In this document: piece after piece, positions 10,292 through 41,581 of the stretch | Layout of the letters: each line of letters opens with the position of its first letter | Position numbering within the stretch: position 1 is the stretch's first letter | From: Nitrosospira multiformis | GTDB lineage: Bacteria > Pseudomonadota > Gammaproteobacteria > Burkholderiales > Nitrosomonadaceae | Length of the DNA stretch: 64,000 nt | NCBI RefSeq assembly: GCF_003050865.1 | Contig: NZ_QAOK01000001.1 | Span: forward strand, 124,001 to 188,000 | Direction of reading: 5' to 3' | Made by a program: the position numbers and the translations under genes | The notes under the pieces: generated by a model | Database searches by the model: none | What the model was told of the DNA's origin: nothing | The model's input: the letters and a program-made list of their open reading frames with translations, nothing else

Positions 10292-10341
10292 TGCGGACTC
10301 TATAATTCTCTCGGACGCAATTCATTTCTCAAGGTTCATAC

Positions 10342-12047: not shown

Positions 12048-12055
12048 AACAGCAG

Positions 12056-12985: not shown

Positions 12986-13623
12986 AGACTACTGCATGGC
13001 AAGCGATCATCTTCGACTTCGATGGGGTCGTGGTCGAATCAGGGGAGATCAAGACACAGGCGTTTGCCAATCTCTACCGGGAATATGGCGAAGTGGTAAT
13101 GGCCGAAGTTGCGAAGTATCATGTCCTGAATGGCGGCATGTCGCGTTATCAGAAATTTCGTTACTTTCAGGAAGCGCTGCTGGAAAAATCTCCGCTTACC
13201 ACGGAGGAGGAGCGGCAACTCGATCAGCGCTTCTCCGAACTGGTGGTCGAAGCTGTGATTGCCAGCGCCCCAGTTCCGGGCGCAGCGGAACTGATCCAGC
13301 GTGAAGCTGGACGCATTCCCTTGTTTGTTGCATCCGGTACGCCGGAAACTGAACTGAATACGATCGTTGTTCGCCGCGGTCTGGGATCTTATTTTACTGC
13401 TGTGCGTGGTTCACCCACTCCCAAGCAGAAGCTGATCGCGGATATCCTGACCACCCATCGCCTTCTGCCGGAACGCGTGCTGATGATCGGAGACGCCTTG
13501 ATCGATTATCAGAGCGCCATGGTCAACAATGTCGCGTTTATAGGCCGCGTACGTCCTGGCGATCAAAATCCTTTTCCAGCCCATGTAGATGTACTACCCG
13601 ACCTGAGTCCATTACTCCTTTGA
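12982..13623 (+). CDS. HAD hydrolase (beta-phosphoglucomutase-like)
   Basis: 213 residues. HAD motif I FDFDGVVVES (Asp nucleophile and Asp acid/base), motif II VASGTP, motif III Lys in PKQKLI, motif IV MIGDALIDYQSA. The helical cap sits between motif I and II, as in the phosphoglycolate phosphatase / beta-PGM group. It is probably a phosphatase or phosphomutase acting before the nucleotidyl transfer by the next gene. It overlaps the SDR gene by 4 nt. Confidence 0.85.
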   Translation: MKTTAWQAIIFDFDGVVVESGEIKTQAFANLYREYGEVVMAEVAKYHVLNGGMSRYQKFRYFQEALLEKSPLTTEEERQLDQRFSELVVEAVIASAPVPGAAELIQREAGRIPLFVASGTPETELNTIVVRRGLGSYFTAVRGSPTPKQKLIADILTTHRLLPERVLMIGDALIDYQSAMVNNVAFIGRVRPGDQNPFPAHVDVLPDLSPLLL

Positions 13624-13753: not shown

Positions 13754-14527
13754 ATGGCGGGTAGCGAAAAACCTCCTGTTAAGGCGATTATTCTGAGCGC
13801 CGGCCAGGGACACCGGCTGGGTCCGCTGACAACCAGTATTCCCAAATGCCTGTTGCCGATTTCAGGCAAGTCGATCATCGAATGGCAGATCAATGCTCTG
13901 CTGTCAACGGGAATCAATCAGGTGACAGTGGTCACCGGTTTCCAATCCTGCCTGATTGAAACTTTGCTGCAGCAGCGTTATGGAAACGGAAGAATCGAGA
14001 CCGTTTTCAACCCCTTTTTCAGTATTACGGATAACCTGGTAAGTTGCTGGATCGCACGTGCGGTCATGGACCGCGATTTTCTGCTTCTGAATGGGGATAC
14101 GCTGTTTGAGGAGGTTTTACTGGCGAGAGTGCTGAGCTCTGATCCAGCGCCTGTTACGCTCAGTGTAGACCAAAAGCCTGTCTATGATGCGGATGACATG
14201 AAAGTTCAACTGGATGAAAACGGATGGGTCAGACATGTCAGCAAAACCTTGCCGACAGGTCAGATCGATGCCGAATCTGTCGGCCTTGTTCTTTTCAGGG
14301 AATGCGGGCCGCTGCTTTTTCGCGACGCCCTAGAGGAAGCGCTGCGACACCAGGGCGGACTCAAAGCCTGGTACCTCTCCATAATAGAGAACCTCGCCAA
14401 CAGACAACTGGTAAAAGCGTGTTTTGTACCGGAAAGCTCCTGGTGTGAAATTGATTTTCCCGCTGATCTGATAAAGGCAGAAGACCTCTTCGGCGAGAAG
14501 AGGTTGAGCAGAAGCGTAACCATGTAG
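13754..14527 (+). CDS. Sugar/choline-type nucleotidyltransferase
   Basis: 257 residues with the NTP-transferase loop LSAGQGHRLGPLTTSIPK (PKCLLPI), acidic metal site LLNGDTLFEE, and EIDFPADLIKAE at the end. It resembles LicC/glucose-1-phosphate cytidylyl- or thymidylyltransferases. It likely activates the product of the upstream operon with CTP or another NTP. It begins 130 bp after the HAD gene, so it may have its own promoter. The ATP-grasp relic follows on the opposite strand, stop to stop with 2 bp between. Confidence 0.82.
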   Translation: MAGSEKPPVKAIILSAGQGHRLGPLTTSIPKCLLPISGKSIIEWQINALLSTGINQVTVVTGFQSCLIETLLQQRYGNGRIETVFNPFFSITDNLVSCWIARAVMDRDFLLLNGDTLFEEVLLARVLSSDPAPVTLSVDQKPVYDADDMKVQLDENGWVRHVSKTLPTGQIDAESVGLVLFRECGPLLFRDALEEALRHQGGLKAWYLSIIENLANRQLVKACFVPESSWCEIDFPADLIKAEDLFGEKRLSRSVTM

Positions 14528-22348: not shown

Positions 22349-23302
22349 TTAAACCAGAGCTTCGCCCGCTAACCTCTCCAGAATGCGCAATGACGAACGC
22401 GATGAGTCCTTCATCGCCTCAACGGGCAGATAGAAGGTCTGGTCGAGGCTATGTTGTCCTGATATCGCCCCATGCAGCACCAGATCTGTGATCGCAATCC
22501 AGCTCGCGCCTGCAGGAAATTCCATGATCCTGCGGGGTGCCGTCCGCTGGTACTCCTTGTCGCGCATGCCGAGCGAACGCAGCGTTGCGATATAGCGGTC
22601 GTATGGAGTCTTGGGACCGTCGATGATACCGAGGCGGCCCAGGAGAGAGGTGATCCAGCCCGGTTCACTTGGGTGCGCGGCAGGCAAGAAGCGCCGCACG
22701 AAGGGCTCAAACGGTTCGCCGAGCTGCCAGATACGCAGCCTGTCAGTGGGATTGATATTGGAGAACACACGCAGCATGCCTCGCCCCTGGGTGGGATAGC
22801 CGTAGCTTGAATCAATGTGCAGGGATTGGATGTTATTACGGGGGAAAGGACGATAGGTAACGCGTTTCCGCTCCAGGACTCCCTGGTAGCTGGGAAACAA
22901 TTGAGTGATGACACTCTCTGTCCATTTACTGTAGCGCGACATCATCGCCTCGATCTGAGGACGTGCCGAGTCCTTGACCTGAGCCCGCATCATCTTCCCT
23001 CGCACTTGGGCATAATGATACTTCTTGATATGGCCGCGCTCCGGATCAAAAATGATGGTTGGACGTCCATCCTCGACATCTGGCGTTCGGGACAGGATAT
23101 TCGCCGTATCCGAAATCAGCTCCCGCTCATGGTCAGACAACTCAAATCCACTTTTTGGCAGATAAATGACCCCGCCTCCTTCCAGCGTGTCGATTGCCGC
23201 GCGCTGCAACTCAGGCACCCTCAGGTCGGTTCCCGGCTCTATCGTCAGCATCTGCACGGTATCACCTTCCTGGTATCCCCCATCCTGTTCCTTATTTATC
23301 AT
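22349..23302 (-). CDS. Kdo hydroxylase family protein (KdoO-like)
   Basis: 317 residues, similar to the Kdo hydroxylase family (PF11004), Fe(II)/2-oxoglutarate oxygenases that turn Kdo into Ko (D-glycero-D-talo-oct-2-ulosonate) in lipid A-core. Visible features: HID metal motif in SLHIDSSYGYP, a later candidate distal His in ITDLVLHGAISG, and the conserved RVFSNINP and YDRYIATL. Start ATG 23302 has AAGGA six bases upstream. 105 bp upstream of the ATP-grasp gene in the same direction, so probably one transcript. It predicts Ko in the LPS or capsule of this organism. Confidence 0.85.
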   Translation of the reverse strand: MINKEQDGGYQEGDTVQMLTIEPGTDLRVPELQRAAIDTLEGGGVIYLPKSGFELSDHERELISDTANILSRTPDVEDGRPTIIFDPERGHIKKYHYAQVRGKMMRAQVKDSARPQIEAMMSRYSKWTESVITQLFPSYQGVLERKRVTYRPFPRNNIQSLHIDSSYGYPTQGRGMLRVFSNINPTDRLRIWQLGEPFEPFVRRFLPAAHPSEPGWITSLLGRLGIIDGPKTPYDRYIATLRSLGMRDKEYQRTAPRRIMEFPAGASWIAITDLVLHGAISGQHSLDQTFYLPVEAMKDSSRSSLRILERLAGEALV

Positions 23303-29693: not shown

Positions 29694-30572
29694 ATGAAAA
29701 CCCCATCAGTGGTAGCCGAGATCGGCTGTAATCATAAAGGCGATATCGAAATCGCCCGGGAAATGATAGGAATTGCCGCAACCTTCGCCAAATGCGATTT
29801 CGTCAAGTTTCAGAAACGCTCGAACCGTGAACTGCTCACCTCCGAAGAATATAATGCCCGGCATCCGAACCCGCAGCACAGTTATGGCAACAGCTACGGG
29901 GAGCATCGCGAGTTTCTGGAATTCGATGTGGACCAGCATCGGCTACTGCAGAAATGGTGTGAGGAGTTTGGAATAGGCTACTCCACATCAGTCTGGGATC
30001 TGACTTCGGCAAAGGAGATCGCCGGTCTCAACCCGGAATTCATCAAGATACCCTCGGCATGCAATCTGCATTTTCCGATGTTGGAGTATCTCGCAAAGAA
30101 CTATGGTGGGGAAATTCATATATCGCTCGGCATGACCACTCCCGCCGAGCAGGAGCAGATCGTGCAATTGATGGAGAAGCATGGAGTCGCCCCCAGGGTT
30201 GTGCTGTACGCCTGCACTTCCGGCTACCCCGTTCCTTTCGAGCAGGTCTGCCTGCTCGAGTTGCAGGCGCTGGAGGAGAGATTCGGGGCACGTATCAAGG
30301 AAATCGGCTTTTCAGGCCATCACCTTGGCATTGCGGTGGACATTGCCGCCCTCACATTGGGCGCCTCATGGATCGAGCGGCATTTTACGCTGGACAGAAC
30401 GTGGAAGGGCACTGACCATGCGGCCTCGCTGGAACCCGACGGGTTGCGGAGACTGGTCCGTGACGTCCGCGCGGCATCCAGGGCGCTTACTTTCAAGAAT
30501 GCGCCGATAGTGGAAATCGAAGTCGCACAGCGTAATAAGCTCAAACGTATCCAAGGGATTCACTTTCACTAG
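29694..30572 (+). CDS. NeuB-family synthase lacking the SAF domain
   Basis: 292 residues. TIM-barrel of the N-acetylneuraminate/nonulosonate synthase family: VVAEIGCNHKGD, FVKFQKRSN, GYSTSVWDL, EFIKIPSAC, ISLGMTTPAEQEQI, IGFSGHHLG and ERHFTLDRTWKGTDHAASLEP. It condenses phosphoenolpyruvate with an aldose (or aldose phosphate) to a 2-keto-3-deoxy acid. It stops right after the barrel (KRIQGIHFH) where NeuB proteins normally continue about 55 residues into an antifreeze-like SAF domain. Its stop overlaps the start of the next gene (TAGTG), so they are coupled. Confidence 0.88.
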   Translation: MKTPSVVAEIGCNHKGDIEIAREMIGIAATFAKCDFVKFQKRSNRELLTSEEYNARHPNPQHSYGNSYGEHREFLEFDVDQHRLLQKWCEEFGIGYSTSVWDLTSAKEIAGLNPEFIKIPSACNLHFPMLEYLAKNYGGEIHISLGMTTPAEQEQIVQLMEKHGVAPRVVLYACTSGYPVPFEQVCLLELQALEERFGARIKEIGFSGHHLGIAVDIAALTLGASWIERHFTLDRTWKGTDHAASLEPDGLRRLVRDVRAASRALTFKNAPIVEIEVAQRNKLKRIQGIHFH

Positions 30573-31774
30573 TGCGCTGGGTAGCTTTCATGCCTCTGCG
30601 CGCGCATTCGAAATCGATTATCGAAAAGAATGTGCGCAACATCGCGGGACGGCCGTTATTCGCATGGAGCCTGGAACAGGCGATCGCATCGCAGTGTTTC
30701 GATGATGTCTATGTTGCGACCGATTCTCCCAAGATCCGAAAAGCGGTATTGGAGGAATTTTCATCAGTGACGGTTCTGGAACGCTCTGCCGTAACCTCCA
30801 CGGACACGGCCAGTACAGAAAGCGCAATGCTCGAATTTCAACAGCAGATTCCCTTTGATGTCATGTGTCTTATCCAGGCGACCTCGCCGCTCACGCGGGC
30901 AGACGATTTTCGCTCCGCCAAGCATAAGTTCCTGGCAGAAAACCTTGATTCCCTTCTGACCGCTGTGCCTTCAAAGCGCTTTTTCTGGAGCGTACATGGC
31001 ACACCCGTCAACTACGACCCGATGCACCGACCAAGACGGCAGGACTTCGAAGGATACCTCATGGAGAATGGCGCTTTTTACCTGACGCGGAGGAAATTGC
31101 TGGAGGAATGCGGTTGCCGGCTAGGGGGGCGTATCGGTGTCCATGAAATGGCCGCCGAGAGCGCGGTCGAAATTGACGATGAAACTGACTGGATTGTTGT
31201 AGAACAACTCCTGCTCAAGCAGAAACGCCAGACGGTTAACGCCGTCGCGGCCGAAATCAAGGCGTTGGTGCTCGATGTAGATGGTACCCTGACCGACGGT
31301 GGAATGTATTACGGCCCCGACGGTGAAGCCCTAAAGAAATTCAACACCCGGGACGCGCACGGACTGAAACTGCTGCGGGAGAATGGCATCCGGGTCGGCG
31401 TCATCACCACTGAAACCAGCCCGTCAGTGGAGGCGCGGATGAGAAAACTCGGGATTGATGAATATTACCCTGGCGCCCGTGATAAATCAGCGCTTCTTCT
31501 GCAACTTGCAACACGCTGGTCGGTTTCATTGCAACACATCGCCTACATTGGCGACGATCTCTGCGACCTGGAATGCATGCGGCGGGTCGGTGCTGCGTTT
31601 TGTCCCGCGGACGCTGTTCCGGAAGTCATGCAGCAGGCACATCATGTCTGCGGGCATACCGGAGGGAATGGCGCAGTGCGGGAAGCCTGTGATCTCATTC
31701 TCAAAGCACGCACGTCAATGCTTGCCGCAGTCAGCGCATCACGCCCCGCCGCAACAGGCGCCATGAAACTTTAA
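30572..31774 (+). CDS. CMP-sugar-acid synthetase fused to KdsC-like phosphatase
   Basis: 400 residues from a GTG overlapping the NeuB stop. Residues 1-about 225 are an acylneuraminate cytidylyltransferase domain, with FMPLRAHSKSIIEKN replacing the usual IPARGGSKGIPxKN, and YVATDS and LIQATSPLTRADD. From about 228 a C0-type HAD phosphatase of the KdsC family begins: LDVDGTLTDGGMYY, FNTRDAHGLKLL, VGVITTETS, YIGDDLCDLECM. The pairing implies dephosphorylation of a phosphorylated sugar acid followed by CMP activation by one polypeptide. The last 44 bp overlap the convergent gene. Confidence 0.87.
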   Translation: MRWVAFMPLRAHSKSIIEKNVRNIAGRPLFAWSLEQAIASQCFDDVYVATDSPKIRKAVLEEFSSVTVLERSAVTSTDTASTESAMLEFQQQIPFDVMCLIQATSPLTRADDFRSAKHKFLAENLDSLLTAVPSKRFFWSVHGTPVNYDPMHRPRRQDFEGYLMENGAFYLTRRKLLEECGCRLGGRIGVHEMAAESAVEIDDETDWIVVEQLLLKQKRQTVNAVAAEIKALVLDVDGTLTDGGMYYGPDGEALKKFNTRDAHGLKLLRENGIRVGVITTETSPSVEARMRKLGIDEYYPGARDKSALLLQLATRWSVSLQHIAYIGDDLCDLECMRRVGAAFCPADAVPEVMQQAHHVCGHTGGNGAVREACDLILKARTSMLAAVSASRPAATGAMKL

Positions 31775-32717
31775 AACCCCACAACAGGGGATGGCGCCGT
31801 AGCATAGGGGTCACTTCGACGCGAACGCCGGTATGGCGCTCGATTTTCCAGGCGGCATAGCTGATGCTGTCATGAAAGGTAAAAGCCGCCTTCGACAGCC
31901 GCAGCACGGACAGGACTTTTCCCTGCCAACGCCGCAGCCGCCAGTGCCAAAGCGACTTCCGACGTTCTGCATCGCCTATCAGACATTCGTAACCTCCATC
32001 CGGCAGGGGCCTCAATTTTCCTGCCAGTGCCGGTATTGCGAGAGCAGTCAGGCGTGAATAGATCTCCAGGTCCATCTGCGCGAGCTGGCGCGCGCGGCCT
32101 GCTCTCTCGGGCCGCAATTCCGCAGCGTAAGTCTGGGTTAATCCATTGGTCCAGATCATTTCAGTGGTGGTCACTGTGGCCCCGGAACAATCGAGAGTGG
32201 GCAGGGTGGAGCCGAGAAAAGTGACGACCGCATGGGCCAAAGACTCCGAAATTCGCTTGCGAGCAGCTTCGTCGCGGGAAAATAATAGCCTCGAGGGCTG
32301 AGCAAAACGTGCCCAGAGATAAGGGTGGAACCAGCGGCGGGTCCCCTGCTCGAAGTCCGCCATTGAAACCACGGCATATTTGGCACGGAACGTTTTCTCC
32401 TCTTGGGACACCTCCAGATAAAAGACATTCGGAGGTAGCAATGCGTTGAAATAGCGCAGGTAGCGTTCCGGGTAAGCACTGCTGTAACTGCCCACGACCG
32501 CGTAAAAATCGACCACCCCATCCCCTATCTCACGCGCGCGCAGGCACGATCCATAAAGAAGCACAGCGTCGAGGGCTGAACCGAAGCGCAATTTCAACGC
32601 CTCTAGCAAAACGAGAAAATCCGCCGATACCGTATTTGAACTCAGTGCCGCCATCTCCGAAATCAAACCCTCTGGAAGCGGTGGATCCACTGTTGCAGGC
32701 CCTTGAAGCATACTCAT
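31731..32717 (-). CDS. Unknown protein with nucleotidyltransferase-like N-terminus
   Basis: 328 residues. I do not recognise the family with certainty. Residues about 50-75 read VLLYGSCLRAREIGDGVVDFY, which resembles the Gly-Ser ... Asp-x-Asp motif of Pol-beta-type nucleotidyltransferases, with the second acidic residue replaced by Tyr. The rest is Arg/Leu/Trp-rich and helical. The ATG overlaps the stop of the DAGK-type gene by 4 nt, so it is the last gene of the minus-strand lipid operon and probably works on the same lipid. No signal peptide or clear membrane span. Confidence 0.6.
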   Translation of the reverse strand: MSMLQGPATVDPPLPEGLISEMAALSSNTVSADFLVLLEALKLRFGSALDAVLLYGSCLRAREIGDGVVDFYAVVGSYSSAYPERYLRYFNALLPPNVFYLEVSQEEKTFRAKYAVVSMADFEQGTRRWFHPYLWARFAQPSRLLFSRDEAARKRISESLAHAVVTFLGSTLPTLDCSGATVTTTEMIWTNGLTQTYAAELRPERAGRARQLAQMDLEIYSRLTALAIPALAGKLRPLPDGGYECLIGDAERRKSLWHWRLRRWQGKVLSVLRLSKAAFTFHDSISYAAWKIERHTGVRVEVTPMLRRHPLLWGFKVSWRLLRRGVMR

Positions 32718-33730
32718 GATTTTGCGTTTGCGGCTGCCCTCTCCGCCACCAGAAAGGCGATCGGGCCAGCAGGCGTAATGCGCAAGGGTCCACTCTGGCT
32801 GTCCGCATGATAGGACTCGCCGTCGACGATGTAATCGTCATCGATCAGCAACTCCATCCCATCAGTGTTGTAGCTATGATAACCATCCTTGTCCCTGAGA
32901 TCGTTTCCACGCCCTATCAGCAACCGAAGCACGGAGCGCAGGGGAAGCTGCCGCTGCTGCCTGACGAATGTGACGTGCAGCGGCTCCGGTTGCTCGCCCC
33001 AGTACGGCCTCATGCCGAACAGCAGGCGGTCGAGAGTGCTGGCGAAAAGAAACGCGAAGGTTCCCTGGTGCTGGGGCAAGGTTTTCTCGGTAATGGTCAT
33101 TCGGACCGGCGCCCATGCTCCCTGACGCCGCCCAAGCAGAAAGCCTGCAACATAGCCGAAGGTAATAAGGGCAGAGTATATTTCTCCGGTAATACCCAAC
33201 CGCTTTATCCTGCTCTGAGAAAAGATCACAGCGCGGGCGATGAGTCCCACGCCGAAGAACATTCCATAAACCTTCCCTGCGCCGGACTGTTCTATGCAAA
33301 GGACATGACGCTTCACGAGTGCGAAGGGAAAACCTTTTTGAAAGCAGGCGCCCAGTTGCTGCAGGACGGATTCCGGGCTGCCGCTTATGCCGAGATCGAG
33401 CGCAGTCATGTTGGTTGTACCGCCCGGCACTATCGTCAGAACAGGCCACTTCGCCAAAGGCTGAGTGGCGAACAGATGGCACAGTACACCCTGCACTGTG
33501 CCGTCCCCGCCGATAATTACCAGCAGATCCGTACCAGCGTTCACGAACGCATCCACCGAGGCGCTGATTTCGTGTGCGTTCGTCACTTCCCTGCAGGCGC
33601 CGGAAATCTCGCCTGTGGCGCGCCGGATCGCCTCCTTCCGCTTGCGAATGCGCCCGCTGAGCGGATTGAAAAGCAATCCGACAGATCCTGTTCCGGACTT
33701 CAATCTATCAACCCGTGATCTTTCTGTCAT
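32714..33730 (-). CDS. Diacylglycerol/ceramide kinase-type lipid kinase
   Basis: 338 residues of the DAGK catalytic family (YegS/sphingosine-kinase-like). N-terminal LLFNPLSGRIRKR, ATP-binding IIGGDGTVQGVL, and VPGGTTNMTALDLG. The C-terminal beta-sandwich has VKRHVLCIE and MELLIDDDYIVDGE. It phosphorylates a lipid hydroxyl at the cytoplasmic membrane. It overlaps both neighbours by 4 nt (CDP-alcohol phosphotransferase upstream, nucleotidyltransferase-like downstream). In Caulobacter a DAGK-type enzyme (CpgB) is the ceramide kinase, so ceramide is a candidate substrate here; diacylglycerol is the alternative. Confidence 0.82.
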   Translation of the reverse strand: MTERSRVDRLKSGTGSVGLLFNPLSGRIRKRKEAIRRATGEISGACREVTNAHEISASVDAFVNAGTDLLVIIGGDGTVQGVLCHLFATQPLAKWPVLTIVPGGTTNMTALDLGISGSPESVLQQLGACFQKGFPFALVKRHVLCIEQSGAGKVYGMFFGVGLIARAVIFSQSRIKRLGITGEIYSALITFGYVAGFLLGRRQGAWAPVRMTITEKTLPQHQGTFAFLFASTLDRLLFGMRPYWGEQPEPLHVTFVRQQRQLPLRSVLRLLIGRGNDLRDKDGYHSYNTDGMELLIDDDYIVDGESYHADSQSGPLRITPAGPIAFLVAERAAANAKS

Positions 33731-34926
33731 CTACGTGATCTTAAAGGTACAAAAATACGAACGGCCAGCTTTCCTTCATCCTGCCCCGCAACGATCTCCT
33801 CAAACCAGGAATGCAAGGGTCCACGCGATCGTCGCGATAGCCATCCCATCACCACTCTCACTGAGAGAAAACCGGTCGAAAGCAGGTGCCAGATCACCAC
33901 GGACAAAAGCCCGATATCCGGCCTGCCCGCCAGCCAGCCAAGTGTCAGCAGAACCAGGTTGGGATTGCGGCGGGCAGTAATGAGCCGATTGAAGGAATCC
34001 AGTGGACGCCAGATGAAAATATCGAATAACGCGACCCAGAACTGGAATGCTCCCTCACACAGCCGCCCACCGATGTAACCGATAAGAATCAGCCCGAATA
34101 ATAGCGGCAGATGCGAGGATAAGGAATAGTCGGCGGACAGCCCCATGCCCCAGGCAATGTACCAGAGCGGTGGATGAATGATATCCAGGCCGTGGTCGAG
34201 CACATCACCCAAGCGGCTGGAGGTAACGGTTACCCGCGCCAGTTTGCCGTCGACGGTGTCCAGGAAGGTCATGAACCATCCCATCACCAGTCCCAATCCA
34301 TAGAAGCCGTACCAGAACGCAATCCCCGCCAGCACGGTAAACAAAAGACTGAGCAGTGTAATATGGTTAGGCTGCAAACCCGCACGTATGCAGAAGCGCA
34401 CTGCCCGAAATGCAGGCGCCGGCCACAGCCACTTTGTCACAAAATCCGTTACCCCTTTGTAAGACCGGTCGAATAGCTCTGACTCGAGATTACAGCGACT
34501 ATTCCTGCTGATCGGCAAAACGTAGGGAGCATCTCTTTTCTTGAGATTCTGGCGCAGGCTTGGCAGATCGAGGTCTTTCAACTCATAACGCAGCAAGGAA
34601 GAAAGGGTTTGCCCTTCTCCTCCGCGCGCAAATTCGTCAAACCCCTGTTGCACGTTCCCGCCGGAAATTCGCACTGCGACTGGCTCACCCTCCTCGCTGA
34701 CAAGCACAAGATCCGTTCTTGCTTTAATCAGGGCGCCCAGCACGATAGCGTCAAAAAGATAATCTCCGCGTAAAAGCAGTGCCGAGGCAGGGGCGGGAAT
34801 ACGTGCCGGATTGTCAACCCGCCTCGTCCCGCTAAATGCCTTTAACATGCGTTGCAGACGTTCCCGACCACTCAAGCCCCAGATATCGGTTTCGCTATCG
34901 CCAATGATATGGATATAAACAGGCAT
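33727..34926 (-). CDS. CDP-alcohol phosphatidyltransferase with nucleotidyltransferase-like N-domain
   Basis: 399 residues from ATG 34926 (GGCGGA upstream); a TTG at 34974 is less likely. Residues 1-about 115 resemble a degenerate NTP-transferase fold (VYIHIIGDSETDIWGLSGRERL, DYLFDAIVLGALI). From about 165 the membrane CDP-alcohol phosphotransferase domain begins (LQPNHITLLSLL), with the full signature DGKLAR(8)GDVLDHGLD. It joins an alcohol phosphate head group to a lipid or polyol with loss of CMP. The architecture recalls inositol-1-phosphate cytidylyltransferase/phosphotransferase fusions. First of three genes joined by 4-nt overlaps. Confidence 0.83.
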   Translation of the reverse strand: MPVYIHIIGDSETDIWGLSGRERLQRMLKAFSGTRRVDNPARIPAPASALLLRGDYLFDAIVLGALIKARTDLVLVSEEGEPVAVRISGGNVQQGFDEFARGGEGQTLSSLLRYELKDLDLPSLRQNLKKRDAPYVLPISRNSRCNLESELFDRSYKGVTDFVTKWLWPAPAFRAVRFCIRAGLQPNHITLLSLLFTVLAGIAFWYGFYGLGLVMGWFMTFLDTVDGKLARVTVTSSRLGDVLDHGLDIIHPPLWYIAWGMGLSADYSLSSHLPLLFGLILIGYIGGRLCEGAFQFWVALFDIFIWRPLDSFNRLITARRNPNLVLLTLGWLAGRPDIGLLSVVIWHLLSTGFLSVRVVMGWLSRRSRGPLHSWFEEIVAGQDEGKLAVRIFVPLRSRR

Positions 34927-35053
34927 CGACGAATCCGCCCGTTGCCCGATTATCTCTGTGCCTGGATTTGTCAAATTGATGGGTTTCGCAAGTCCTCCCG
35001 CAAGATTGCGGCAGGCATTCAGGTTAATAAAATCGGAACAAGTCAGAGGTTTG

Positions 35054-36118
35054 TTAAAAGATCCGCCGTAACCAGAAATAAGCCACGGCGATCAGCACCA
35101 CCCCTGGAAGAAGTGCGCTCAGCGCGGGATTCAAATGCAGCAACAAGCCCGCATTGGCAATGATCTGATCGAAGAGATAGACGCCGATTCCGAGCATCGA
35201 TGCGAGCACGAGCCTGTTCCCGAGGCCCGCCCGCACCGATCCAAAAACAAAGGGAATCGAAAGCAACAGCATCGCGATGGTCGTCAGGGCGCCACCCGCC
35301 TTGCCCCACAGGGCAAGCTCATAAGCATCCGACTCCTGCCCTGTGGCGCGCAGAAAATGCACATGTAAAAGTAACTCGGCGGGCGAGAGACTTTCCGGCG
35401 ATTTGGTCAATGTCGAGATATCCCCCTCCTTCAGGAAGGGTTCCCAGGGTACTGATTCTCTGGTTACGAGCTCCACGGCGTTACCGTTGAATGTCTTGAT
35501 GACGACGTCCCTCAACTCCCACAACCCCTCATTTATGATGTCAGCATGCCTGGCATACGTATACCGTAACAGGAAACCATTGTCGTCAAAATGCATTATT
35601 TCGATGTTCGCTGCCCTTCCCGCATACAGCATTTCTCCGATTCGCAGTATATTCCGCTCATCCCGCGTCCATATCCCTAATTGTTTGCCAAGCGCGGCGC
35701 TCTTCTCAAGCGCGGCTGCACGGGATGAAATGGCCTTCTGCTGAAATTGCGGCGCCACGAACTGATCCAGTGCAGTAATAAGCAGTAGAAGGGCCATTCC
35801 AACGGCAACCGGTGCAAGGCTGATGCCCAGAGGAGATACACCTGCTCCCCGTAACGCCGTGAGTTCCGATCCGACGGCAAGCCTTCCCAATGCAGTTACA
35901 TTGCCCATCAATGCGATGAAGGGCGCAAGTTGAATAAATCGTCGAGGCAGCAGTAGAGCCGTATAAAAAAATGCATCCTTGACGCTGTACGTGCCCTTTC
36001 CCACATCATCGAGCTGATCCAGCAAATCAAGAAAACCGAAGAGCGGCAGAAGCACCGCAGTAGCGATTCCCAAGCCCATCAAAACCTGGAGCGCAAGGTA
36101 GCGGTAAATTATCGTCAT
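35054..36118 (-). CDS. LptG-like permease (YjgP/YjgQ family)
   Basis: 354 residues from ATG 36118, overlapping the LptF-like stop by 4 nt. Six membrane segments in two groups of three flanking a periplasmic beta-jellyroll, the LptF/LptG architecture (PF03739): YRYLALQVLMGLGIATAVLLP, FIALMGNVTALGRLAVGSELTALRGAGVSP, and SIPFVFGSVRAGLGNRLV near the end. LptFG extract LPS from the inner membrane for the Lpt bridge. In this setting, between lipid-synthesis genes and without pepA, it may be a second copy serving another lipid. Confidence 0.85.
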   Translation of the reverse strand: MTIIYRYLALQVLMGLGIATAVLLPLFGFLDLLDQLDDVGKGTYSVKDAFFYTALLLPRRFIQLAPFIALMGNVTALGRLAVGSELTALRGAGVSPLGISLAPVAVGMALLLLITALDQFVAPQFQQKAISSRAAALEKSAALGKQLGIWTRDERNILRIGEMLYAGRAANIEIMHFDDNGFLLRYTYARHADIINEGLWELRDVVIKTFNGNAVELVTRESVPWEPFLKEGDISTLTKSPESLSPAELLLHVHFLRATGQESDAYELALWGKAGGALTTIAMLLLSIPFVFGSVRAGLGNRLVLASMLGIGVYLFDQIIANAGLLLHLNPALSALLPGVVLIAVAYFWLRRIF

Positions 36119-37185
36119 CTGCGCAGAAGCAGCTTCCACCGGAAACCGGGCGACAATAACGAGATTGCAAACAGCAGCATGACACCGTAGAGCCACCAAA
36201 CCCCCGGCACCCTGCCGATCGTACCCTGCTCGACCCAGGTCTGGGCCAATCCGCTCAAAATGTAGTAGATGGCGAAAACCAGAGCTGCCAGATAATAAGT
36301 CTTATCCCCCTTTGTCTGGCGGGGTGAAGCGCGGCTGAAGGGCACCGCTATCAGCGCCAGCAGGATCGTTCCCAGTGGGCGCGACAGCCGCCACTGAAGC
36401 TCGGCAGTATCCCGTGGCAGATCGGATTGCATCAATGCCGCGGTAGGGGCAGCCTTGCGCCTGTAATCCATTACGTTTCCGCTGTCCGTGAAATAAACCA
36501 GCTTTTCAAACTGGACGACGGTATCGCCCTTTCCGGTGTGTGATAGCCGGTAAATGGAGCCATCCAGCAGATGTATCTGGGGGCGCTGGCCGAACACAAG
36601 CTCAGGCTGGTATGCCTTCCTGGCAAGGATGATCTCGCTGCTGTCATGCTTGTTCAGATAATGGAATACCTCTCCCATCTGCTTGCCCGAGCTATCCTTT
36701 ACATAAATCACCCGGCCTTTTTTTTCGCTGCCGTAGAAACGCCCAGCGCGGAACCGCTCCGTATTCAACTCTGCCTCTGCCTGGGCATTGAGCAGATAGC
36801 TTTCCTCATACGCCCATGGACGCGCAAAAATGGAAAGAAAACCACTAATAAGCCCCACAGGAACCGCAACGATGAGCACTGCATAGATAATGCGATGCTC
36901 ACTGACTCCGGCGGAACGCAAAACGACTATCTCCTGGTCCCGGTGCAGGCGGCCCAGCCCCATGATGACAGCAACGTACAGGGCAATGGGCATCAGCACT
37001 TCCAGTGCGATCAGCGTTTTCAGGAACACGAGCCTGAGCACGGGGACAAGGCCAAGCGAATCTGTCACTGCTCCGGCCAGAAAACGGGCGGTGCTGAAAC
37101 TTGCAAACAATGTCGCGAGGATCACGGTGACTACCATAAACGGTATCAGCAGTTCTCGCGTGATATATCGTTCTATTATTTTCAC
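36115..37185 (-). CDS. LptF-like permease (YjgP/YjgQ family)
   Basis: 356 residues from a GTG at 37185. Same topology as the next gene: three membrane segments (IIERYITRELLIPFMVVTV..., IALYVAVIMGLGRLHRDQEIVVLRSAGVSE), periplasmic domain (about 110-260), then three more (ILLALIAVPFSRASPRQ...). Forms a heterodimer with the LptG-like partner and needs the LptB ATPase, which is not in the window. It follows the NTP transferase by 41 bp. Confidence 0.85.
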   Translation of the reverse strand: MKIIERYITRELLIPFMVVTVILATLFASFSTARFLAGAVTDSLGLVPVLRLVFLKTLIALEVLMPIALYVAVIMGLGRLHRDQEIVVLRSAGVSEHRIIYAVLIVAVPVGLISGFLSIFARPWAYEESYLLNAQAEAELNTERFRAGRFYGSEKKGRVIYVKDSSGKQMGEVFHYLNKHDSSEIILARKAYQPELVFGQRPQIHLLDGSIYRLSHTGKGDTVVQFEKLVYFTDSGNVMDYRRKAAPTAALMQSDLPRDTAELQWRLSRPLGTILLALIAVPFSRASPRQTKGDKTYYLAALVFAIYYILSGLAQTWVEQGTIGRVPGVWWLYGVMLLFAISLLSPGFRWKLLLRR

Positions 37186-37226
37186 GTTGCCTGTCGCCGT
37201 TGATCGGAATTCAAGCCTCTCACATT

Positions 37227-38069
37227 TCAGGGAGCGGGTCCGCGCAAATCGGCCTCTCCTCCGGCAGCCGGCCCCTTGCCGGCCAGCACCGACTCCGCCA
37301 GCACCAGATCTGCAACCTTGTCCACATCGACCCCCGCTTGAGGGTAAGGCAGGAATACCGGATGCGCCCTGATGGCGGTTTTTCTTCTGACTGCTCTCAG
37401 TCCCCTTTCTATCGTCAATAATCCCAGCAGATAATAGAAGACAGTCGCGAACCCGAAAGTCTCCATGATCAAGCGTACCGGTCGCTTGCGCAGGTCTTCC
37501 GCACGTTGCCAGAATGATACGAGACCGCGGCCGCGATCATTGAGAAAGGCATACAGGTTGCAGCCGCAGACATTCGCATCCTTTAACCTTATTACCGTTC
37601 GCCTTGCCCCGGGAAACGCAGCTGCCACATCTTCATATTTGACGACCCCCACAGCAGCATCGCAATCCGACGTCTGCGAGTTGCGAAGAAAATATTGCAC
37701 GATGGCCGGTGTCAATAACGCATGATCGGCTGTGGTCAATAATACCGGGTCCTCCTGATTCACCTGGGAGAGGCCGCTGCGGGCGCTGCGGCTGGGAGAA
37801 TCGAGATTTGGCAGCCAGATGACGCGCCCGCTGCGGATACGTTCCTCCAGCTCCGGACAAGCGGGCAGCAAGGACTTCGGTGGCCCGCACAAAATGATGC
37901 CCTTCACCATGCCGCTGGCTTCCAGCGCGTCCAGCACGCGGATAATCATCGGGATTCCCCCGACGCGCGCGAACGCCTTGCAGGGCGCTCCCGTTTCCAC
38001 GGAGATGGGATCGCGAGCCGTGCGGTCCGCTGCCAGCACCACGGCGGTGAACAGATCATTCTTTTTCAT
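37227..38069 (-). CDS. NTP transferase family protein (MobA/GT-A-like)
   Basis: 280 residues. N-terminal FTAVVLAADRTARD takes the place of the LAAGxGxRxG loop of nucleotidyltransferases; then PCKAFARVGGIPMIIRVLDAL, IILCGPP and LLTTADHALLTP (acidic site). The C-terminal part (RLIMETFGFATVFYYLLGLLTIERGL) is hydrophobic and may touch the membrane. It probably activates the head-group alcohol phosphate used by the CDP-alcohol phosphotransferase downstream. The glycine loop is degenerate, so activity is not certain. 46 bp after the GNAT gene. Confidence 0.75.
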   Translation of the reverse strand: MKKNDLFTAVVLAADRTARDPISVETGAPCKAFARVGGIPMIIRVLDALEASGMVKGIILCGPPKSLLPACPELEERIRSGRVIWLPNLDSPSRSARSGLSQVNQEDPVLLTTADHALLTPAIVQYFLRNSQTSDCDAAVGVVKYEDVAAAFPGARRTVIRLKDANVCGCNLYAFLNDRGRGLVSFWQRAEDLRKRPVRLIMETFGFATVFYYLLGLLTIERGLRAVRRKTAIRAHPVFLPYPQAGVDVDKVADLVLAESVLAGKGPAAGGEADLRGPAP

Positions 38070-38115
38070 TGCATCGTTTTACCGATTCCGGTTCTTCAGT
38101 TGCTCCATCCGGCAT

Positions 38116-39270
38116 TCACAGCATCTTCTGGTAAACCCGGTAGCGTTTATACTCCCTGCAGCCCAAACTATCCAGAATGGCACGCATGGGCTTGTTATCC
38201 TCAAGTATCCAGGATAATTCCATTGCCTTCACTCCCATGGCTCGTCCGAGTTCCCTCGGCGCATCGATGACCATGAAGGCAAGCGCCATACCGAGCGGAG
38301 TACTATGGAAGCGCCTGCGTACTCCCATTAATGGGATGCGACCGGTATGCACTCCTCCCCTGGATCTGATCCGGACCAGTCTGATCCATCCAAACGGGAA
38401 CAAGTGTCCGTTCAGTTCGGCAAAAATTTCGTTGAGATTTGGCAATGCCACCATGAACGCGGCGGGCACTCCGTCGACCTCCGCAATCTGGATACAATCA
38501 TCGGGTACGAGCAAGCGAAGGCTGGCCCCAAGTTCAGCGAACTCCGACTGAGTAAAAGGAACGAACCCCCAATTCTCGGACCAGGCATCGTTGAATATAT
38601 CACGCAGCACTTCCAGCTCTTCGCTGAACTTGTCGCGGCGCAGAGTCCTCAGGCGCACCTGATCCGCAAATTTACCGATCAAGGCATCCATCAGCCGCGG
38701 CACCTTGAAATCGAGCTCTATCCAATAGGCAAGCAAATCCTTTGCCTGTTGATACCCCTGTTCTTCCAGCAGGCGACCGTACCATTTGCGGGAGTGTGGC
38801 ATCATCACCACCGGCGGCGTATCAAAACCTTCCACCAATATGCCGCATTCCTGGTTGATTGATAAATTGAACGGACCGGTCACATGCCTCGTCTGCTGCG
38901 CACTCAGCCATGCCTCAGCCGTATAGAAGAGGGCAGCCGCCACTTCCTTATCATCTATGCACTCGAACAGACCGAAATGTCCGCTATCGCCGCCGTAGCG
39001 TTCCCGATGCAGTTGGTCGATCTGAGCGCTGATCCTTCCCACCGGCTGACCACTCCTGTATGCAATCCATGCCTGCCATTTTCCGTGCTTGAAAAAGGGG
39101 TTGAATCTCGAAAAATGCAGGCGTCGTTCCAGCCGCAAAGGGGGAACCCACATGGGATCATCAGCGTAAATACTCCAAGGAATATCGATAAAAATCCCCA
39201 TTTCCCGGTAGCTTCTGACGGGACGGACAACGACTTCCGAGAAGTTTGGGCCGCTAATCTTTTTTTTCAT
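38116..39270 (-). CDS. GNAT-fold acyltransferase, candidate bacterial ceramide synthase type
   Basis: 384 residues from ATG 39270 (MKKKISGPNFSE); earlier ATGs at 39318/39309 are possible because no ribosome site is decisive. Features: IDIPWSIYADDPMWVPPL, ERRLHFSRFNPFFKHGKWQAWIA, GQPVGRISAQID and, near the end, MELSWILEDNKPMRAI, a large GNAT-type family often mislabelled dATP pyrophosphohydrolase. From memory, the Caulobacter ceramide synthase bCerS belongs to this kind of protein; orthology is inference. First gene of the minus-strand lipid cluster that continues with NTP transferase, LptF/G-like, CDP-alcohol phosphotransferase and lipid kinase. Confidence 0.68.
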   Translation of the reverse strand: MKKKISGPNFSEVVVRPVRSYREMGIFIDIPWSIYADDPMWVPPLRLERRLHFSRFNPFFKHGKWQAWIAYRSGQPVGRISAQIDQLHRERYGGDSGHFGLFECIDDKEVAAALFYTAEAWLSAQQTRHVTGPFNLSINQECGILVEGFDTPPVVMMPHSRKWYGRLLEEQGYQQAKDLLAYWIELDFKVPRLMDALIGKFADQVRLRTLRRDKFSEELEVLRDIFNDAWSENWGFVPFTQSEFAELGASLRLLVPDDCIQIAEVDGVPAAFMVALPNLNEIFAELNGHLFPFGWIRLVRIRSRGGVHTGRIPLMGVRRRFHSTPLGMALAFMVIDAPRELGRAMGVKAMELSWILEDNKPMRAILDSLGCREYKRYRVYQKML

Positions 39271-39662
39271 GCAAAACTCGGCACTTGATGATCGACGTGG
39301 ATATTCCATGGTTCGCATTGGGCAGAGACCTGACAATGTTCGCACCGTGAAAGGCTGCGCCCCGGAAATGAGCTGACGGAAGAACGAAACGATTTCAGCT
39401 TTACCGAGTCCCGGCAGGAGCCAGTCTATACCCTGCGAACAGGGCGGATATGTTAACTTGTTAACTCGATGACATCTTGTTGACGTGTGATATTATAATT
39501 GGCGGTCTGCTACCTGGGACGGACTTCAGCATTTATCCCTGCCATCTCCGTACACTCAGTCCGGAGAATGAGCGGTAGTATAGCGAATGAAGTAAGAGGA
39601 AAAGAAGGAAACAGCGACTGGCAGTGATTCTGTAACGATTATTTGCGGAAGGTTGATTATTG
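39271..39662. promoter_or_regulatory. Divergent regulatory region of the lipid cluster
   Basis: 392 bp between the minus-strand lipid operon and the plus-strand small-protein/KAS/ACP genes. It contains two GTTAAC palindromes 8 bp apart (39452-39457, 39460-39465), ATGACA at 39469-39474 and TATAAT at 39494-39499. The last two form a possible but wide (19-bp) sigma-70 promoter reading rightward. The GTTAAC pair overlies its upstream edge and could be an operator. No gene seen. Confidence 0.45.
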
Positions 39663-39917
39663 ATGGAAAGTTCTGAGTATAGCCTGCTAGTGTCTCTCGC
39701 CCTTATTCCTGTCGTTATCGGACTGCAAATATGGGTAAGGAATCGCCGCAGGCGCCGGCGCAACGAAGCCGGGCAACAGGAATTCGATAGCCTGGCTGCA
39801 ACGCTCCTGTCAGCGCTTATCGAAGGAGTAGCCGTCATCTCGAGTTTATTACTCATCATCTGGATTATGGGAGGCATATTGAGATACCTGTTCCCCATGA
39901 TATTCAACGCAAAGTAG
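39663..39917 (+). CDS. Small two-span membrane protein
   Basis: 84 residues from ATG 39663 (GGAAGG upstream). Two hydrophobic segments (about 7-25 SLLVSLALIPVVIGLQIWV and about 52-78) separated by an arginine cluster NRRRRRRNE, which would be cytoplasmic. I do not recognise a family. It precedes the ketoacyl synthase by 174 bp in the same direction, so a role with the lipid genes is possible but unproven. Confidence 0.6.
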   Translation: MESSEYSLLVSLALIPVVIGLQIWVRNRRRRRRNEAGQQEFDSLAATLLSALIEGVAVISSLLLIIWIMGGILRYLFPMIFNAK

Positions 39918-40044
39918 CAACGCGAGTGTCCCACGCAACCGTGAAGCCGGAAACCTTCGGGCAATGGCCCCGGCTAACGATCCCCGGTGGATTCCGCTGT
40001 CCATTGCACAATGAGAGCTCACCTGTTCACTGCATTGAATATCT

Positions 40045-40057
40045 CCTCATAATGAGG
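40045..40057. promoter_or_regulatory. Perfect 6-1-6 palindrome upstream of the ketoacyl synthase gene
   Basis: CCTCAT-A-ATGAGG lies 35 bp before the ATG at 40092. Its size and place fit a repressor or activator site, or a small hairpin in the leader. No matching second copy noticed nearby. Confidence 0.35.
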
Positions 40058-40091
40058 TTGGGCAGATTCTTATGATTATTTCCGGTTTTGT

Positions 40092-41321
40092 ATGCGTGTA
40101 GTCGTGACAGGAATGGGAGTTGTTTCTCCCATTGGCATCGGGGTTGACCAGTTCTGGTCAGCAGCTGTCAATGGTGTGAGCGGAATAAAAAGAATAACCA
40201 GCTTTGATGCATCGAGCAGGCGTTCCCAAATTGCAGGAGAAGTGGCGGACTTTGATCCTTCAACCTTCCTCTCCCAAAAGTATATCGAGCAAACTGACAG
40301 GTTCACCCAGCTTGCCCTGCTTGCTGCGCGTCTTGCCCTCGAGGATGCCGGCGGACTTGATGCTTATGAGTCTCGCCGCATCGGGGTGAGCATAGGTTCG
40401 GGAATGGGCGGCTTTTCCACCTTCGAATCATCCGCGCTGCGCAAGTTTCGGAACCAGCCGGTACCGCCTTTCACCGTACCACGCACAATGGCCAACTCCG
40501 CCGCCGCCTGGATCGCGATCAAACATGGGTTCAAAGGCATGAACCTGACCTCCAGTACAGCTTGCTCTTCGGGAGCCAATGCCATCGGCGCGGCACTCGA
40601 TCTCCTGCGTGCAGGAAGAGCAGACGTGGTGATCGCCGGCGGCGCAGAAGCGTGCGTATTGCCGCTCACCATCAACGGTTTTGAGATATTGCATGCCCTG
40701 ACCACCACTTCCAACGACAATCCAGCCGGAGCCTCGCGTCCTTTCGCAAAAGGCCGCGATGGTTTTGTCATGGGAGAGGGTGCCGGAATACTGATTCTCG
40801 AGAAGGAAGAGCAGGCCCGCAGCCGGGGAGCGAAAATATATGCCGAGCTTGCCGGCTATGGACAGGCATGTGATGCAACGCATATCGTAATGCCCGACAT
40901 GGAAGGCCAGATAGCTGCCATGCGGGAAGCCATCCGTGATGCCGGAATGGAGCCGGATTCCATTGAGTATATCAATGCACATGCGACTTCCACGCCATTG
41001 GGCGATACAGTCGAAACGCGGGCGATAAAAAATCTTTTTGGAGCGCGCGCCGCTGATATTGCCATCAGCGCCACCAAATCGATGGTAGGGCATTCCATTG
41101 GCGCGTCGGCAGCAATCGGCAGTATCGCCACCATCATGGCGCTTCATACCGGCACCATCCATCCGACCATCAATCTTGATGAGGCTGATCCCGAATGTGA
41201 CCTCGATTACACACCCAACGTTGCGCAGAAAAGGAGTGTCCGCACCGGCTTGTGTAACGCTTTCGGATTTGGCGGCAACAATGCGAGCATCCTTTTCACA
41301 ACCCATGAAGGAAGAGACTAG
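40092..41321 (+). CDS. 3-oxoacyl-ACP synthase II-type (FabF-like), specialised
   Basis: 409 residues, normal KAS II length. Catalytic Cys in TSSTACSSGANAIG, His in NAHATSTPLGDT and His in TKSMVGHSIGASAAIG, so the Cys-His-His triad is intact. It condenses malonyl-ACP with an acyl-ACP. It is not in a fab operon; its only partner is the ACP gene starting 2 nt after its stop, which suggests dedicated synthesis of a special acyl chain, plausibly for the divergent lipid operon. Confidence 0.9.
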   Translation: MRVVVTGMGVVSPIGIGVDQFWSAAVNGVSGIKRITSFDASSRRSQIAGEVADFDPSTFLSQKYIEQTDRFTQLALLAARLALEDAGGLDAYESRRIGVSIGSGMGGFSTFESSALRKFRNQPVPPFTVPRTMANSAAAWIAIKHGFKGMNLTSSTACSSGANAIGAALDLLRAGRADVVIAGGAEACVLPLTINGFEILHALTTTSNDNPAGASRPFAKGRDGFVMGEGAGILILEKEEQARSRGAKIYAELAGYGQACDATHIVMPDMEGQIAAMREAIRDAGMEPDSIEYINAHATSTPLGDTVETRAIKNLFGARAADIAISATKSMVGHSIGASAAIGSIATIMALHTGTIHPTINLDEADPECDLDYTPNVAQKRSVRTGLCNAFGFGGNNASILFTTHEGRD

Positions 41322-41323
41322 AT

Positions 41324-41581
41324 ATGGACACAGCGGAGATTGAAGCAAAGGTCGTACAATTCATCGCCACAAAAGTCGAGAATCTCGATGCTTCCACTAT
41401 CAACCGGTCTTCAAAATTTGAAGAGCTTGGACTCGACTCCATGGATACGATCCAGCTTCTGTTTGACGCTGAAGATGCATTTGGCATCAATTTCGATAGC
41501 GAGGAAGCAAAGGGATTCAGCACCGTAGGAGATATCGTCTCCTATATCGAAACCCATCAGTCATCAGCAGCCTCCCAATAA
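41324..41581 (+). CDS. Acyl carrier protein, dedicated
   Basis: 85 residues with the phosphopantetheine serine in EELGLDSMDTIQLL (DSM instead of the usual DSL) and an acidic helix II/III (FDAEDAFGINFDSEEAK). Two nucleotides downstream of the KAS gene, so co-translated. It is divergent from housekeeping AcpP and carries intermediates for the adjacent synthase. Convergent with topB, 108 bp apart; no terminator hairpin was seen between them. Confidence 0.92.
   Translation: MDTAEIEAKVVQFIATKVENLDASTINRSSKFEELGLDSMDTIQLLFDAEDAFGINFDSEEAKGFSTVGDIVSYIETHQSSAASQ

Follow-up and report, generated by a model that had tools for sequence, protein, structure and literature searches.

What does a conserved block of lipid genes make in an ammonia-oxidising bacterium, and what does the LptFG pair inside that block carry? 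The block lies at positions 31731 to 41581 of a 64,000-nucleotide stretch of the Nitrosospira multiformis genome (assembly GCF_003050865.1, contig NZ_QAOK01000001.1, positions 124,001 to 188,000)—hereafter the window, to which coordinates refer unless a locus is named. We consider it likely that this block, together with a sphingolipid operon on contig C12 and a cpgD-like gene in the window, builds a ceramide-phosphoglycerate (CPG) lipid that is carried by LptFG and the Lpt system and replaces lipopolysaccharide (LPS) in the outer leaflet. A phosphosphingolipid is proposed as the LPS substitute because the family has neither a detected lpxC nor an LPS-type LptFG pair; the genes, their linkage, the LpxC-negative searches, the LptFG copy numbers and the tree are direct observations.

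The gene block and its probable ceramide backbone

The genome (3.29 Mb in 85 contigs, 99.5% complete) carries all ten open reading frames (ORFs) that a sequence-only reading had listed, on the strands and from the families named there, as borne out by an ORF check, by Pfam and NCBIfam scores and, for the GNAT, by identity to a known enzyme. Seven genes are transcribed on the minus strand in the following order:

38116-39345, minus strand: ceramide synthase-type N-acyltransferase (CerS/aca, GNAT family); GTG start uncertain, homology from near 39234
37227-38069, minus strand: MobA-like nucleoside triphosphate (NTP) transferase, probable CC_1153 counterpart (NTP_transf_3, 63 bits against a cut-off of 27)
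36115-37185, minus strand: LptF, CPG-linked type from trees (TIGR04407, 337 bits against 230)
35054-36199, minus strand: LptG, CPG-linked type from trees (TIGR04408, 321 bits against 240); TTG start uncertain
33727-34974, minus strand: CpgA-like CDP-alcohol phosphotransferase with a nucleotidyltransferase (NTase)-like N-domain (CDP-OH_P_transf, 36 bits against 22); TTG start uncertain
32714-33730, minus strand: predicted CpgB-like ceramide kinase of the DAGK type (DAGK_cat, 58 bits against 23.6)
31731-32717, minus strand: CpgC-like NTase-family protein (CC_1161 type), a Tam41-type lipid-phosphate nucleotidyltransferase and predicted CTP:ceramide-1-phosphate cytidylyltransferase

Pfam by itself gives the GNAT a weak score (18.5 bits; cut-off 20.7). 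Several four-nucleotide overlaps had been claimed between these genes; two exact ATGA overlaps hold, at 32714-32717 and 33727-33730, and no more than these. Whether LptF and LptG overlap hinges on the choice of start codon—homology of LptG begins near 36112, so its true start is probably internal.

Gene order was compared in the best 80 of 580 CpgC relatives, a sample that leans to the ammonia-oxidiser family and underlies all counts of public loci given below. The nearest CpgC loci come from an N. multiformis metagenome-assembled genome (MAG; 97%) and N. multiformis Nl7 (93%), followed by Nitrosovibrio, Nitrosospira and Nitrosomonas. Identical order of all seven genes is kept in 44/80 loci, and a six-gene order without the CDP-alcohol enzyme in a further 13/80. 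The remaining 23 deviate, some lying on short contigs and some genuinely without a gene in place; L117, L124, L127 and L137, for example, have no NTP transferase there, and L121 and L138 are without the front genes. In 17/80 public loci the kinase and CpgC form a single ORF; one of the 17 is the MAG 97% identical in CpgC, with no stop at the junction. Each of these families is common on its own, as a chance neighbourhood of unrelated lipid genes would have it; that explanation is refuted by the conserved gene order, to which the single kinase-CpgC ORF adds, and we give it practically no weight. The arrangement is far beyond chance.

The sequence-only reading had proposed a ceramide- or inositol-like lipid, and had pointed to spt and cerR as genes to look for outside the window. 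Both are present, in one minus-strand operon with aasR and acpR on contig C12 (locus L009); percentages are identities to the E. coli BL21 proteins:

L009:12801-11146, minus strand: aasR, 46%
L009:11069-10185, minus strand: cerR, 47%
L009:10119-9925, minus strand: acpR, 45%
L009:9889-8717, minus strand: spt, 54%

The GNAT is 48.8% identical over 373 amino acids to YghO of E. coli BL21, that is, ECD_02850, the ceramide N-acyltransferase of the E. coli set (PMC9386255), and 46% identical to two homologues from plasmid-borne clusters. Spt occurs at 74% identity or more in 79/81 genomes of the family, and G021 and G024, both less than 90% complete, hold a homologue of about 30%. Since counterparts of Spt and CerR are in the genome and the GNAT matches YghO, the backbone is, judging from sequence, a ceramide; among published pathways, the one that matches is that for CPG and CPG2. 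The lipid pathway of ceramide type that had been read from the window is thereby upheld. Among the 15 matches that a genome-wide fold-type I aminotransferase search gave, L002 was rejected as Spt, with 32% identity to E. coli Spt and a biotin-synthase-like gene (by eye) adjoining it.

Three plus-strand genes diverge from the block:

39660-39917, plus strand: small protein of 85 amino acids, hydrophobic by eye
40092-41321, plus strand: FabF-type ketoacyl-ACP synthase (TIGR03150, 524 bits against 494), a candidate for a link to the lipid
41324-41581, plus strand: acyl carrier protein (ACP; PP-binding, 43 bits against 20.8), probably not the sphingolipid AcpR

The small protein adjoins the block in 20/80 loci and FabF with ACP in 13/80, in each case in loci of the Nitrosospira/Nitrosovibrio type and not in those of Nitrosomonas. 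The idea that FabF and this ACP feed the pathway is unsupported, because counterparts of AcpR and AasR stand with spt and FabF/ACP are found in those 13 loci only, though they may still play some part; the pathway probably uses the AcpR encoded next to spt as its acyl carrier, and not the ACP at 41324.

At the other end of the block, a plus-strand gene at 30572-31774 fuses a NeuA-like cytidylyltransferase domain to a HAD phosphatase domain and follows a NeuB-like gene (by eye). Among the relatives, L167 and L168 are MAGs titled Klebsiella pneumoniae whose spt-linked cluster resembles those of environmental gammaproteobacterial MAGs—the titles look wrong.

Predicted head-group enzymes

In Caulobacter crescentus the CPG2 cluster spans CC_1168-CC_1152 and includes LptF2/LptG2; ceramide is phosphorylated there by CpgB, CPG formation requires CpgC, and that of CPG2 requires CpgA, CC_1153 and CpgD (PMC11324152; PMC10331486; PMC12275187). 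We assigned the Cpg names by context: enzymes like CpgC, CpgA, CC_1153 and CpgD were all matched in plasmid-borne clusters, in a comparison that covered 5 of 17 records with a CpgC match. An spt-like gene lies in the stretches compared from Pseudomonas pPNP1 and two Roseomonas plasmids, and not in those from Diaphorobacter pDCB2 and a Qipengyuania plasmid. The kinase adjoins CpgC in the relatives and also in the plasmid clusters that bear spt. Identities to pPNP1 are 39% for CpgC, 34% for the kinase, 47% for the CDP-alcohol enzyme, 41% for the NTP transferase, 36% for LptF and 39% for LptG. The clusters of pPNP1 (L077) and pDCB2 (L078) have their own LptFG; because these clusters sit on IncP plasmids, of which pDCB2 is typed as conjugative, the CPG pathway can travel.

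The protein CpgC is present in 80/81 genomes of the family. A profile of 39 sequences (38 of the 80 loci among them; L172 was excluded) found as its best match in the PDB the mitochondrial CDP-diacylglycerol synthase Tam41 (6ig2, E 2.7e-4). An AlphaFold2 model (pLDDT 85, pTM 0.85) returned Tam41 for its first five Foldseek matches (best 7ecd, E 4.6e-7; also 6ig4), and Y55-G56-S57, D70 and Y72 are invariant in the 39 aligned sequences. An InterPro hint of CDP-diacylglycerol synthase had been given for CC_1161, and an activated ceramide proposed (PMC11324152); the predicted Tam41 fold supports that proposal. Being Tam41-like, CpgC probably makes CDP-ceramide from ceramide-1-phosphate and CTP—what would set it apart from Tam41 is this predicted acceptor.

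The kinase has GGDG at residue 74, and no CxxxCxxC motif is present. In its relatives the GGDG form is found in 40/79 and, with AGDGT counted, the motif is found in 78/79, the last sequence being a fragment. The single kinase-CpgC ORF described above would suit enzymes that act one after the other on the same substrate.

For CpgA, the motif DTVDGKLAR-x8-GDVLDHGLD is intact, and a model (AlphaFold2, pLDDT 86) resembles AF2299 (4o6m, E 4e-11), phosphatidylinositol phosphate synthases and IPCT-DIPPS in Foldseek. The MobA-like NTP transferase best matches TTHA0179 (2dpw, E 1.9e-15). Also in the window is the gene proposed to supply the glycerate:

13754-14527, plus strand: CpgD-like cytidylyltransferase (LicC type), predicted CTP:phosphoglycerate cytidylyltransferase

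Its product is 51% identical to the cytidylyltransferase of pPNP1 and 44% to that of pDCB2; among solved structures it best matches CTP:phosphocholine cytidylyltransferase (1jyk, E 4e-13). The gene shares a locus with cpgC in 9/80 cases, five of them from records titled outside the ammonia-oxidiser family. Other NTP transferases were rejected as CpgD, L014 at only 29% and the rest as GlmU, IspD, KdsB, RmlA, GalU and GlgC types by eye.

These enzymes bear on whether the polar head group of the ceramide might be of inositol type, or of some further kind, in place of phosphoglycerate. The nearest structures of CpgA would suit such a head group, as would its best NCBIfam match, archaetidylinositol phosphate synthase, which lies far under the cut-off (53 against 180). 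Against this stand the CpgD-like cytidylyltransferase, its sharing of a locus with cpgC, and the finding that Caulobacter CpgD makes CDP-glycerate (PMC12275187). We judge another head group improbable; of the two options originally offered, ceramide is retained for the backbone, whereas for the head group the presence of the CpgD-like gene favours glycerate over an inositol-like moiety.

Upstream of the cpgD-like gene, plus-strand genes at 9524-13623 (CMP-Kdo-synthetase-like, HpcH aldolase, 2-hydroxyacid dehydrogenase, epimerase and HAD) lead into it. The epimerase and its neighbours share a locus with cpgC in 18/80 relatives, where they are convergent with cpgC; perhaps these genes form a surface sugar or head-group route.

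LPS genes and the LptFG pair

Genes of lipid A synthesis were surveyed in family f1 (81 genomes), taken to be Nitrosomonadaceae on account of the nearest public loci. LpxC was found in 0/81 of these genomes, with E. coli and Caulobacter controls positive, and LpxB was not found in the Nitrosospira genome, the one genome searched for it. In the order as a whole LpxC was detected in 238/250 genomes; the 12 without it comprise all 8 drawn from f1, both from family f40 and two genomes that are 84-86% complete. LptD is present in 81/81 family genomes. In a survey from 2010, lpxK was the sole lpx gene found in N. europaea and lpxA the sole one cited for N. multiformis, and the lpx losses were ascribed to genome reduction (PMC3087551).

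The two f40 genomes (G119 and G163, 98-99% complete) yielded no LpxC, no CpgC and no LptF or LptG at all, and are possibly another LPS-free lineage, without the Lpt inner-membrane pair.

A search of the Nitrosospira genome with PF03739 found just two genes, the LptF and LptG of the window, and no second pair. The domain occurs in 79/81 family genomes: 75 have two such genes and 4 have three, and the 2 without any are G021 (89% complete) and G028 (72% complete). Counting a single LptF or LptG match per genome in 79 of the 81, cpgC and this match share a contig in 73/79 and lie at most 8 kb apart in 72/79. In L060 (G038:C2) LptF has moved from the block to another contig and LptG remains; in G034 the region L075 (G034:C1:200000-219999), apart from the main block, holds a third LptF, with a NeuA-like gene and a cpgA homologue (71%) close by.

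Copy number was then compared across 25 hand-chosen genomes, a non-random sample with small classes. One LptFG pair is found in 10/10 genomes with LpxC and no CpgC (G122 has an additional fragment below the cut-off), two pairs in 2/2 with both (G178 and G217), and none in 2/2 with neither (G119 and G163). Nine further CpgC-positive genomes, mostly gammaproteobacterial MAGs and counted by CpgC rather than LpxC status, have two pairs each. N. europaea (G333) and G323 have one pair each, and both pairs fall in the family clade; G323 groups there although its record is titled Gammaproteobacteria.

Which type the family has retained was addressed with a tree of joined LptF and LptG (53 pairs, after removal of 10 duplicate pairs and of L059, where there is no LptF). 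The 15 family pairs form one clade (support 100/100) inside a clade of 26 (100/99), which also takes in L227, whose linkage is unestablished, and ten CPG-linked pairs that come from MAGs, pPNP1 and E. coli BL21. The unlinked pairs of CpgC-positive genomes stand apart in 9/10 cases, beside the pairs of ten other Burkholderiales (84/79); the tenth, L210, is a long branch elsewhere, and the pair of E. coli K-12 is a long branch of unsure placement. In a reduced tree of 45 pairs, from which L210, L226 and L227 (long branches) and L078, L079, L081, L229 and L231 (a deep clade) were removed, the family and the ten CPG-linked pairs group at 100/100. Joining the family to the LPS-type pairs of its own order was rejected with these 45 pairs (p-AU 9.3e-5, log-likelihood 216 lower). 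By these sequence comparisons, the LptFG that the family has retained is of the CPG-linked, sphingolipid type and not of the LPS type.

Could CPG or CPG2 be an accessory lipid, with LPS retained through divergent enzymes that escaped detection? Very divergent genes can escape profile searches, two f6 genomes hold both LpxC and CpgC, and E. coli and Caulobacter are LpxC-positive while strains of both have sphingolipid genes (PMC11324152). The identical search, however, detected LpxC in 238/250 genomes of the order, the survey of 2010 is independent of ours, and no LPS-type LptFG was found in the Nitrosospira genome; we therefore hold an accessory role to be very unlikely.

The proposed pathway and what it would mean

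Under the reading that we prefer, AasR, AcpR and Spt would make the long-chain base, the GNAT would attach the second acyl chain, and CerR would then reduce the product. CpgB would phosphorylate the ceramide, and CpgC, as a Tam41-type enzyme, would use CTP to convert ceramide-1-phosphate to CDP-ceramide, which would then receive the first glycerate. CpgD would make CDP-glycerate and CpgA would transfer phosphoglycerate from it, with the MobA-like enzyme assisting at the CpgD/CpgA stage. The operon's own LptF and LptG would pull the lipid from the inner membrane and hand it along the Lpt bridge to LptD, so that the phosphosphingolipid occupies the outer leaflet instead of LPS. In evolutionary terms, an ancestor would have gained the CPG pathway with its LptFG; lipid A synthesis would have disappeared afterwards, as would the LPS-type LptFG, while LptD was retained.

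Several points weigh against this reading. CpgC lies below the Pfam Tam41 cut-off (12.4 against 24), and in 39/39 aligned sequences it has tyrosine at what we take to be the second acidic position of the textbook nucleotidyltransferase motif. The kinase motif reads AGDGT instead of GGDGT in 38/79 relatives, and CpgA is not in the block in at least 16/80 loci (the 13 six-gene blocks, L167, L168 and L174). We do not claim loss of CpgA, as G034 holds a copy elsewhere (L075). Orthology to the Cpg proteins is drawn from cluster context, from E. coli BL21, from the plasmid clusters and from a statement on Nitrosomonas eutropha; in Caulobacter, moreover, CPG arises without CpgA, which bears on how the first glycerate joins CDP-ceramide (PMC11324152). 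Five CPG-linked LptFG pairs (two Roseomonas plasmids, pDCB2, G178 and G217) form a separate deep clade, so that linkage to CPG genes defines no single clade; this group (L078, L079, L081, L229 and L231) is joined by the unlinked L210 on its long branch. The negative searches concern LpxC (family) and LpxB (own genome), and no search was aimed at LpxA, LpxD or WaaA; the Lpt components covered are LptD, LptF and LptG, to the exclusion of LptA, LptB, LptC and LptE. Enzyme activities, lipid structure, transport, location in the outer leaflet, the order of gain and loss and the absence of LPS itself are what we infer from the observations. Finally, the window holds a minus-strand homologue of Kdo hydroxylase (22349-23302; PF11004, 298 bits) and the CMP-Kdo-synthetase-like gene (9524-10291, plus strand); because of these two genes, the bacterium may still produce Kdo (3-deoxy-D-manno-octulosonic acid), possibly as part of a capsule. 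The substrate of the Kdo hydroxylase homologue is a puzzle, given that LpxC and LpxB were not found in the genome.

These two Kdo genes, together with the retained LptD, would also suit an explanation in which a CPG-type lipid is made and LptFG carries something else—a residual lipid-A-like or Kdo-bearing molecule from a non-canonical route—with adjacency being historical. This is contradicted by the negative LpxC and LpxB searches, by the CPG-linked type of the retained LptFG, and by the two surveyed genomes that lack both LpxC and CpgC and have no LptFG at all. We think a different cargo unlikely, and continue with LptFG as the carrier of the sphingolipid.

Known systems resemble this one in part. 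Like Caulobacter, Nitrosospira has CerS, CpgA, CpgC, CC_1153-like and CpgD-like enzymes and a predicted CpgB-like kinase, with LptF2/LptG2 counterparts in the cluster, and AasR, CerR, AcpR and Spt in the genome (PMC11324152; PMC10331486; PMC12275187). Unlike Caulobacter, it is without a detected LpxC (as in the family search) or a second, LPS-type LptFG pair, its genes lie at three places, and kinase and CpgC form a single ORF in some relatives; a CC_1158-like phosphoesterase is missing from the block, the one part of the genome examined for it. The E. coli BL21 island (NC_012971) shares aasR, cerR, acpR, spt and yghO, and its LptFG pair falls in the same clade of the tree; in contrast, none of its 10 compared proteins matches CpgA, CpgB or CpgC above chance level, E. 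coli has LpxC, and K-12 has another LptFG. Sphingomonas glycosphingolipids bear sugar head groups. LPS is absent from Sphingomonas and a sphingolipid takes its place (PMC11324152; PMC10964400); this genus belongs to the Alphaproteobacteria, whereas Nitrosospira represents a betaproteobacterial family in which the genes are of the phosphoglycerate type and the one LptFG pair is of the CPG type. N. eutropha belongs to the same family as Nitrosospira and has at least 13 of the 17 genes of the Caulobacter cluster in three regions; for Nitrosomonas, the sections of that paper considered here mention neither missing LPS genes nor a single LptFG pair (PMC11324152).

Already known, then, are the CPG2 pathway with LptF2/LptG2 in Caulobacter, the N. 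eutropha orthologs, two ammonia oxidisers with hardly any lpx genes, and LPS-free Sphingomonas. What is new is the tie between the CPG operon and the loss of LPS genes; in the open-licence literature, among the matches listed, we found no paper that joins LPS loss in ammonia oxidisers with sphingolipid export. It is moderately probable, in our estimation, that the reading extends to the whole family of betaproteobacterial ammonia oxidisers: these would be LPS-free, with an outer leaflet of phosphoglycerate-type sphingolipid, and their Lpt bridge, from a sphingolipid-type LptFG gained with the pathway to LptD, would have switched cargo to become a dedicated sphingolipid exporter.

The route of sphingolipids to the outer membrane has been stated to be unknown (PMC11324152). 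If our reading is true, the lpx losses noted in 2010 would be explained as replacement of LPS and not as mere loss (PMC3087551). An Lpt system without lipid A synthesis would allow Lpt cargo to be studied free of LPS. The picture of the cell surface would also be altered for Nitrosomonas and Nitrosospira, the bacteria that begin nitrification in soils and in wastewater plants by performing its first step.

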